From assembly GCF_023078835.1 (NCBI RefSeq), contig NZ_CP090898.1, positions 1,614,045 to 1,678,044 of the forward strand: 64,000 nucleotides of DNA, given 5' to 3'. The notes under the pieces are model-generated. The model was not told the origin of the DNA and made no database searches. It worked only from the letters and a program-made list of their open reading frames with translations. The stretch's first letter is position 1. The number at the start of each line of letters is the position of its first letter. A program made the translations under genes and the position numbers. The stretch is from Synechococcus sp. NB0720_010. Its GTDB lineage: Bacteria; Cyanobacteriota; Cyanobacteriia; PCC-6307; Cyanobiaceae. Positions 45,065 to 46,755 of the stretch are shown here, in pieces.

Positions 45065-45201
45065 CGGCGCTGGAACCCCAGGGGGCCTCGATCGGTGGAC
45101 GTCCGACCATTGTTCTTTGCCGCCGGTCCCCCCCGTTGTGACGAACGATGCGACTGGGCTTTTAGGGTGGGTTGCTCCGAGCCCCTGGGATGGTTGCCGG
45201 C

Positions 45202-46275
45202 ATGATTCCCACCTCTGATCTCCACGTGGTGGAAACCCGGCCCCTGGTGGCGCCCACCCTGCTGCACGGGGAGCTGCCACTGAGCGAGACCGCTGGGCGC
45301 ACCGTGCGCGAGGCCCGCGAGCGCATCAAGGCCATCCTTCGGGGTGACGACCAGCGTTTGCTGGTGATCGTTGGACCCTGCTCGGTCCATGACGTGGAGG
45401 CGGCCCAGGAATACGCCGCCGCCATCGCTGAAGAACACAAACGTCACCGTGACCAGCTTGAGGTGGTCATGCGGGTCTATTTCGAGAAGCCCCGCACCAC
45501 CGTCGGCTGGAAGGGGTTGATCAATGACCCGCATCTGGACGGCAGCTACGACATCAACACCGGTCTGCGCCTGGCCCGCGGCCTGCTGCTGCATCTGGCC
45601 GACATGGGGCTACCGGCTGCCACGGAGCTGTTGGACCCTGTCGTTCCCCAGTACATCGCTGATCTGATCAGCTGGACGGCCATCGGCGCCCGCACCACCG
45701 AAAGCCAGACCCACCGGGAAATGGCCTCTGGGCTGTCCATGCCCATCGGTTTCAAGAACGGCACCGACGGCAGCGCCATCACCGCCATCAATGCGATGGA
45801 GGCGGCAGCACGCCCCCACCATTTCCTGGGCATTAATAAGGATGGCCAAGCGGCCATCGTCACCACCACCGGTAACCCCGATGGGCACCTGGTGCTGCGG
45901 GGCGGCAAGCAGGGCACCAACTACCACCGAGAGGCGATTGAAGAAGCCTCGGCTGCTCTGGTGAAAGACGGACTGCCGGCTCGGGTGATGGTGGATTGCA
46001 GCCACGGCAACTCCAATAAGGACTACCGCCGTCAAGGCGAGGTGGCGGCGCAGGTGGCTGAGCAACTGCGGGCGGGCTCCCGCGATGTCATGGGCGTGAT
46101 GATCGAGAGCCATTTGGTGGCTGGTAATCAGAAGATCAGCCCCGATCGCTCGGCCCTCACCTATGGCCAGAGCATCACCGACGCCTGCATCGATCTGCAG
46201 ACGACCCGTGAGGTGCTGGCGAGCTTGGCTGATGCGGTTGCGGCGGCCCAGAGCGCTTCTGCCGTCGCGGTTTAA
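45202..46275 (+). CDS. aroF: 3-deoxy-7-phosphoheptulonate (DAHP) synthase, AroFGH type
   Basis: The product of 357 residues from ATG 45202 catalyses the first step of the shikimate pathway (PEP plus erythrose 4-phosphate). It shows [36 protein letters not shown] and [10 protein letters not shown], typical of the type I alpha enzymes AroF, AroG and AroH. The feedback effector cannot be read with certainty. An ATG at 45190 is an alternative start. It is divergent from acnB and followed by the CIRCE element. Confidence 0.94.
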
Positions 46276-46293: not shown

Positions 46294-46320
46294 TTAGCAC
46301 TCGAAGATCGAGAGTGCTAA
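46294..46320 (+). promoter_or_regulatory. CIRCE operator (HrcA binding site)
   Basis: TTAGCACTC, nine spacer bases, then GAGTGCTAA: an exact match to the consensus CIRCE inverted repeat. HrcA binds it and represses until heat stress. In cyanobacteria it is known mainly in front of groESL and groEL2. Here it precedes the uncharacterised gene at 46420, with a promoter-like TTTAAA at 46346-46351. Confidence 0.95.
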
Positions 46321-46419
46321 TTGCCTTCGGTGCTCAATAGTGTGGTTTAAAACTGTTGGCAGTGAGCAGAATCTTCTGCCTGTCCAATTACCTTGTCTGC
46401 AACTGAAAGGGGGCTGCCT

Positions 46420-46755
46420 ATGGCCTATCTGCTGCAGTTTTTTGGTCTGTCTGATCCGTTGCAGCTGTTTTACCTGCAGCAAAGTTCCGTGGATGGTGCC
46501 GGTCCGGTGTTCACGGGCTTTCGCCCGGTTCAGCTGGATGCCTTGATGGCCTGGGCCCTGGAGACTGCCAGTTGCCGCCAGTGGGATCCAGAGCGGACCC
46601 AGCGCAGTGTGATCAACGCTTGGATGGAGCGCGCTGAGGCGATCCGCCAGTGGCAGTTGTGTTTGCGCAGTGAACCCGGAGAGACCCAGTTGGTCACCGG
46701 CCTTGGCACCCAACGGGACTGGGAGCAGCGCTGTGAGGCGATGCTCAGGGCATAG
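46420..46755 (+). CDS. CIRCE-controlled small protein of unknown function
   Basis: The 111-residue protein from ATG 46420 (AAGGGGG six bases upstream) begins MAYLLQFFGLSDPLQLFYLQ. It continues with a tryptophan-rich helical part (LDALMAWALETASCRQWDP, AWMERAEAIRQWQLCL). No signal peptide or membrane span is convincing. I do not recognise the family. A consensus CIRCE operator lies 99 bases upstream, so expression is probably heat-inducible through HrcA. It may assist or extend the chaperone response. Its end overlaps the convergent phytol kinase-like gene by 11 bases. Confidence 0.75.
   Translation: MAYLLQFFGLSDPLQLFYLQQSSVDGAGPVFTGFRPVQLDALMAWALETASCRQWDPERTQRSVINAWMERAEAIRQWQLCLRSEPGETQLVTGLGTQRDWEQRCEAMLRA

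Follow-up and report, generated by a model that had tools for sequence, protein, structure and literature searches.

A predicted HrcA operator precedes the gene for a small protein of no known family in Synechococcus and its relatives

INTRODUCTION

An HrcA regulon typically has few members, for the most part core chaperones. In cyanobacteria the genes described as being under the control of HrcA or of CIRCE are groESL and groEL2, according to the passages on this subject in three papers (PMC2758279, PMC5381637, PMC8400943). The established HrcA cycle is set out in a section of a review (PMC7760821), which also records, for Synechocystis, a microarray hint that HrcA might affect some genes lacking a CIRCE. 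The transcription start of groES in Synechocystis was mapped inside the CIRCE, in the passage of PMC2662882 that deals with it.

Outside the cyanobacteria, the sections of PMC7448276 concerned with M. tuberculosis name ruc and three Hsp60/Hsp10 genes as direct targets of repression by HrcA. Ruc (Rv0991c), the function of which was formerly unknown, proved to be a redox-regulated chaperone; it is the sole non-chaperonin target of HrcA there, and its promoter also has two inputs, HrcA and SigH. An uncharacterised heat-induced protein of Synechocystis PCC 6803, Slr1674, is described in the relevant part of PMC2865547 as induced 14- to 19-fold after 10–20 min of heat, and the slr1674 mutant as having lost most of its basal PSII thermotolerance.

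The locus considered here lies in a stretch of 64,000 nucleotides, referred to as the window, from Synechococcus sp. NB0720_010, a small freshwater-type cyanobacterium. It resembles the known cyanobacterial HrcA/CIRCE regulon in having the same operator letters, an HrcA encoded in the genome and a comparable distance from CIRCE to the start codon (99 nt as against 88 nt for groESL). It differs in that the predicted target encodes no chaperonin and belongs to no known family, in an extra dyad that groESL lacks, and in that groEL2 has no CIRCE in this genome. As a small protein and a predicted non-chaperonin target of HrcA, the product is like Ruc. However, the named mutants in PMC7448276 place cysteines of Ruc at positions 8, 11, 29 and 32, whereas the window protein has no CxxC. 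It was rejected as a Ruc on the cysteine pairs C8/C11 and C29/C32, the two proteins being set apart by description. By analogy it may work like Ruc, without being Ruc.

RESULTS

CIRCE and the gene behind it

The inverted repeat TTAGCACTC-GAAGATCGA-GAGTGCTAA at 46294–46320 matches the CIRCE consensus with no mismatches, as an earlier note on this DNA had claimed. Allowing up to three mismatches, it is the only CIRCE in the window, and none was found in 100 shuffles. At the same threshold the whole genome (2,410,448 bases in one contig) contains one other CIRCE site, which lies between an atpD-like gene and groES-groEL (gene names assigned by eye), making two in all. The gene for the 111-aa protein occupies 46420–46755 on the + strand and begins with ATG, and the distance of 99 bases given in the note was right. 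An alternative TTG start would give a 120-aa reading; the alignments of homologues begin at the ATG. The good ribosome-binding site that had been ascribed to the gene is recognisable by eye as AAAGGGGG at 46406–46413 (+). Upstream, a DAHP-synthase-like gene at 45172–46275 (+), named by eye without a family search, has its stop 18 nt ahead of CIRCE.

HrcA is encoded elsewhere in the genome (PF01628 match at 1843805–1844422, E 2.3e-27, above the cut-off). The dnaK gene inside the window, at about 32541 (+), has no CIRCE at up to three mismatches, which agrees with the note. The predicted CIRCE regulon of this genome consists of groESL and the 111-aa gene. The note had given control of mainly groESL and groEL2 as background, and the literature cited above agrees with it; groEL2 of this genome (889195–890697) is free of CIRCE, both in its 4.5-kb locus and in the genome-wide search at up to three mismatches, and is in this respect unlike the groEL2 described in other cyanobacteria.

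The gene is present in 19/25 genomes of the genus and in 122/300 genomes of a family sample. An order sample, which shares genomes with the family sample, contained the protein in 83/200 genomes, every match being in the window's own family. Named relatives with the gene (73 loci) include Vulcanococcus, Cyanobium, Synechococcus WH 5701 and Aphanothece, names that point to the Cyanobiaceae as the family concerned. Comparison with the nearest relative, 94% identical, gave pS 0.446 and pN 0.037, so the reading frame 46420–46755 is under purifying selection; over pairs of ten genus members the median pN/pS was 0.29. The variable part of the protein family is a loop after residue 24, where four loci (L016, L017, L168 from GreenBA-s and L172 from Vulcanococcus limneticus LL) carry a 22-residue insert rich in Pro, Ala and Gly. 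A close relative (G017, loci L018 and L022) has an 82-aa version in which approximately residues 62–88 are missing in frame and a perfect CIRCE is kept. The contig CALPNT020000223.1 (L167), titled as a Bifidobacterium breve MAG, carries the cyanobacterial gene without CIRCE and is probably from a mislabelled or contaminated bin.

Conservation of the operator in the family

A site was called CIRCE-like if, within 260 nt, it had at most four mismatches to the strict consensus and at least 7/9 arm pairs, or at most one mismatch to YTRGCACTC-N9-GAGTGCYAR. Such a site precedes the gene in 110 of the 122 family genomes, 85–118 nt from the start codon; it is missing in 10, and in the other 2 the contigs were too short to judge. 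The question whether related homologues lack CIRCE, on which the note had staked its claim, is thus answered mostly in the negative. In a set of named public genomes, which overlaps largely with the 122 and from which one partial-match locus was left out, the site was present at 66/72 loci, absent at 5 and on too short a contig at 1. In this set the CIRCE of Vulcanococcus limneticus LL is fully paired, and that of Synechococcus sp. WH 5701 has one broken arm pair.

Both arms agree with the strict consensus in only 17 of the 110 sites. All nine arm pairs are formed in 67, eight in 30 and seven or fewer in 13, so that at least one pair is broken in 43. The fully paired sites fall into four matched forms, TTGGCACTC/GAGTGCCAA (n = 23), TTAGCACTC/GAGTGCTAA (n = 17), TCAGCACTC/GAGTGCTGA (n = 16) and CTGGCACTC/GAGTGCCAG (n = 11). 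Matched changes in the two arms are expected of a symmetric protein-binding site. The losses of CIRCE are mostly clustered: it is missing in 5/5 genomes of genus g17, 1/1 of g23, 1/3 of g32, 1/2 of g31 and 2/34 of g6. Two of these CIRCE-less cases are unusual in other ways, G265 (g6) having a stop within the gene and G103 (g31) being a partial match.

Co-occurrence of the gene with HrcA

Co-occurrence was examined in 121 family genomes of at least 95% completeness. HrcA was found in 98 of these, G132 by a fragment match only, and the protein in 62, all 62 of which have HrcA. None of the 23 genomes lacking HrcA has the protein. With the search pattern used, two CIRCEs were found in 50 of the protein-positive genomes and one in the remaining 12; by the wider criterion, 9 of these 12 have a CIRCE-like site at the gene and 3 have none. 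Two CIRCEs were found in none of the 59 protein-negative genomes. Among the matches listed in the family search, 30 CIRCE loci comprise 23 before groES-groEL and 7 before the 111-aa protein gene.

The HrcA-negative genomes, 1.6–2.0 Mb in size, come from just five genera (g4, g9, g13, g28 and g38), and the joint loss therefore does not represent many independent events. In these small genomes HrcA, the gene and nearly all CIRCEs are absent together. Two genomes, G067 and G106, retain one CIRCE without a detectable HrcA.

Distant homologues in the class

A profile built from 70 family members matched in 71/242 class genomes, of which 65 lie outside the family, with a best E of 1.5e-17 among these. 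Each genome had a single match, which almost always covered the full length. When distant members were included in the profile, 45/146 genomes of a phylum sample matched, all within the class. Class members in the alignment are 21–30% identical to the window protein. The upstream regions of 84 distant loci were searched, made up of 64 of the 65 outside the family, excluding the split match G339, and of 20 more that represent part, not all, of the phylum-sample matches.

CIRCE with up to three mismatches was present within 350 nt at 24 of the 84 loci, in 11 families, including 11/11 loci of family f32. With 60 shuffled dyad patterns the mean was 0.03 loci and the maximum 2, and the histogram has two humps. 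No CIRCE at this threshold was found at the other 60 loci, among them 13/14 in f24 and 10/12 in f15. Taken with the 10 of 122 relatives that lack it, this indicates that control by HrcA is not essential to the gene. Twenty class genomes were searched for CIRCE, and the first locus listed for each precedes groES or groEL. In 12 of these genomes the distant homologue has a CIRCE with up to two mismatches; there are exactly three such sites in 11 of the 12 and four in one.

A tree of 107 proteins was based on few columns, left 54/104 inner branches open and gave two long-branch warnings. The presence of CIRCE changes 11 times on it and gain cannot be told from loss there, so that either ancestral control followed by losses or repeated gain may hold. 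The note's proposal that the gene is a new member of the HrcA regulon is supported by the CIRCE-like sites at 110/122 family homologues and at 24/84 distant ones, the latter adding 11 further families.

A second dyad and the predicted promoter

Between CIRCE and the gene lies a second dyad, TGTTC-N5-GAACA, a possible activator site, which with up to two mismatches is found in 100 of the 110 family leaders; about 4 would be expected from mononucleotide shuffles. It begins 20 or 21 nt past CIRCE in 59 of these 100, and in 79 the first TAnnnT follows at exactly 20 nt. The copy in the window, at 46354–46368 (+), is degenerate (two mismatches) and starts 33 nt after CIRCE. Twenty nt past it is TACCTT at 46389–46394 (+), 68 nt downstream of CIRCE, the predicted −10 box, placed from the sequence. 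Transcription would then start near 46401, with the dyad centred about 40 nt ahead of the implied start, a position that would suit an activator site, and with CIRCE near −94. A distance of about 94 nt between CIRCE and the predicted start sets the gene apart from groES of Synechocystis, which has its start within CIRCE (PMC2662882, passage as above). The conserved dyad, 20 nt from a TAnnnT box, suggests that the promoter has two inputs.

When at most one mismatch was allowed, neither the 24 groESL upstream regions nor the 24 CIRCE-bearing distant homologues contained the dyad. It was present in 2 of the 84 distant homologues, L257 and L304, both without CIRCE. Searches of ten genomes at one mismatch gave 10–21 sites per genome against 1–4 for the control. 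Near one further perfect site (L339) no heat-shock gene was recognised by eye.

The protein

The window protein belongs to a cyanobacterial family, as judged from its homologues, profile scans and purifying selection, that has no Pfam or NCBIfam model. With E up to 10 it had no match in Pfam, and scans of it together with 12 or 27 relatives against Pfam and NCBIfam gave scattered weak matches, each in one to three members. One of these, to the type IV CRISPR protein Csf3 (TIGR03116), scored 17.5 bits against a cut-off of 140, recurred at any level in 1/27 relatives and was taken as chance. GroES (Cpn10) was rejected, there being no Pfam match in the window protein (E up to 10) or the 27 relatives (E up to 1), as was a small heat-shock protein of the HSP20 type, there being no match to the alpha-crystallin domain in Pfam for the same proteins. 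Sequence searches of the PDB gave as best match a 113-residue HTH-type protein (E 0.023 over 61 residues), which was not convincing, and with a smaller alignment a designed protein (E 0.27).

Structure prediction gave a poor model for the window protein (pLDDT 60.8, pTM 0.49). For homologue L145, which is 64% identical and has no variable loop, the model is fair (pLDDT 74.3, pTM 0.70) and has the order strand-strand-helix-helix-helix-strand-helix. Compared with solved structures, this model gave nothing below E 2.9 with Foldseek in the PDB and reached a Z of at most 3.2 (rmsd 5.4) with VIA-align 2, neither comparison yielding a convincing match. The invariant residues across a class set of 27 proteins are three Trp, a Leu-Asp pair and one Gly. 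The DAHP-synthase-like neighbour was considered as a functional partner and dropped, as neighbours differ in other families. By eye, L262 (f32) and L272 (f19) have a transporter-like divergent neighbour in common.

DISCUSSION

The genome comparisons establish, at the level of sequence, the operator itself, its conservation before the same gene, in most cases with matching arms, and the joint occurrence of the operator with the gene and HrcA. We consider it highly probable that the 27-bp inverted repeat functions as an operator for HrcA and that the 111-aa gene forms, beside groESL, a second transcription unit of the HrcA regulon; control of the gene by HrcA is very likely. Given that the gene appears to have the same switch as the chaperonin genes, and that this switch is retained before it in most relatives, the protein is very probably an undescribed part of the heat-stress machinery.

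From the HrcA cycle (PMC7760821, the section cited above) the gene should be expressed when GroEL is overloaded. In the unstressed cell GroEL would keep HrcA active, and HrcA bound to CIRCE would repress the gene. Under heat or another protein-folding stress unfolded proteins would occupy GroEL and HrcA would fail, upon which the product would be made alongside GroES/GroEL. The likely promoter of the family, downstream of CIRCE, would comprise the dyad TGTTC-N5-GAACA, 20 nt and TAnnnT. HrcA would act from about −94, either by blocking an activator at the dyad or by blocking read-in transcription from the upstream gene. HrcA at this distance, together with an activator at the dyad, would make a promoter with two inputs.

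Four other explanations must be weighed against this one. The repeat lies 18 nt past the DAHP-synthase-like stop codon and folds as RNA into a 12-bp hairpin, and so it could be the stem-loop end of that gene, a terminator or 3′ stabiliser, instead of an HrcA operator. However, the letters recognised by HrcA are conserved beyond mere pairing, no run of T follows the repeat, and a second CIRCE is found in 0/59 relatives without the small gene. Elsewhere CIRCE lies behind a different gene (L358) or between divergent genes (L352 and L363), yet still before the 111-aa homologue. We regard the stem-loop explanation as very unlikely. That this CIRCE arose by chance or is a relict, and has no function, is harder still to believe, even though some relatives have kept the gene after losing CIRCE, because the site is conserved across many genera with matched arm forms and recurs in 11 further families.

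Transcription might begin within CIRCE or directly ahead of it, in the manner of groES, with the dyad and TAnnnT box forming a second, HrcA-independent promoter. The mapping of the groES start to the CIRCE loop in Synechocystis (PMC2662882, same passage), the AT-rich TAATAC-like box seen by eye upstream of CIRCE in several f32 homologues and the similarity to groESL in the distance from CIRCE to ATG all point this way. The window itself, however, has no good −35/−10 pair by eye directly before CIRCE, and the dyad-20 nt-TAnnnT arrangement is retained in 79/100 dyad-bearing leaders; a start at CIRCE, about 46303, is a real possibility but, on balance, not the one we would choose. It could also be argued that an activator at the second dyad is the main driver of the gene, that CIRCE only fine-tunes it and that heat is not the main signal. 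The dyad is indeed far more frequent in the family leaders than expected (100/110 against about 4, at up to two mismatches) and, at up to one mismatch, is absent from the 24 groESL upstream regions. Nevertheless, at up to one mismatch it is absent from all 24 CIRCE-bearing distant homologues, L257 and L304 have the dyad but no CIRCE, the copy in the window is degenerate and the dyad has no known binding protein, all of which makes a leading role for such an activator rather unlikely.

Returning to HrcA control from CIRCE, the predicted co-regulation with groESL leads us to suggest a role for the protein beside the chaperonin. That it is a small stress protein working with the chaperonin or on its substrates, in line with the GroEL-linked helper proposed in the note, can be put forward tentatively, the odds being somewhat against it. 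A fuller proposal is more doubtful: the protein would be a small partner of the chaperonin, a substrate adaptor or holder, that came under HrcA control early in the history of the class; its gene would be the sole CIRCE unit besides groESL in small Synechococcus/Cyanobium-like cells; and its promoter would have two inputs, with HrcA acting from far upstream.

With HrcA regulons as small and as rich in core chaperones as they are, a conserved extra member points to a missing part of the chaperonin system. A gene under predicted CIRCE control across the class, and absent from 23/23 HrcA-less genomes of the family, provides a testable setting for a protein family of unknown role. It also raises the question of why Synechococcus/Cyanobium-like cells keep the gene while the lineages with the smallest genomes have lost HrcA, the gene and nearly all CIRCEs. 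Among the open-access papers searched, none was seen to describe a small cyanobacterial gene of this type under the control of CIRCE; an earlier listing, for instance in RegPrecise or in subscription papers, is possible. The chaperone passages of a paper on stress transcriptomes of WH7803 (PMC7393227) do not mention hrcA.

Slr1674, heat-induced as the window protein is predicted to be, was considered from its description as a possible member of the same protein family. The slr1674 gene adjoins hypA1 in Synechocystis. In two genomes of family f31 the gene of the present protein family adjoins, by eye, a galE-like gene.
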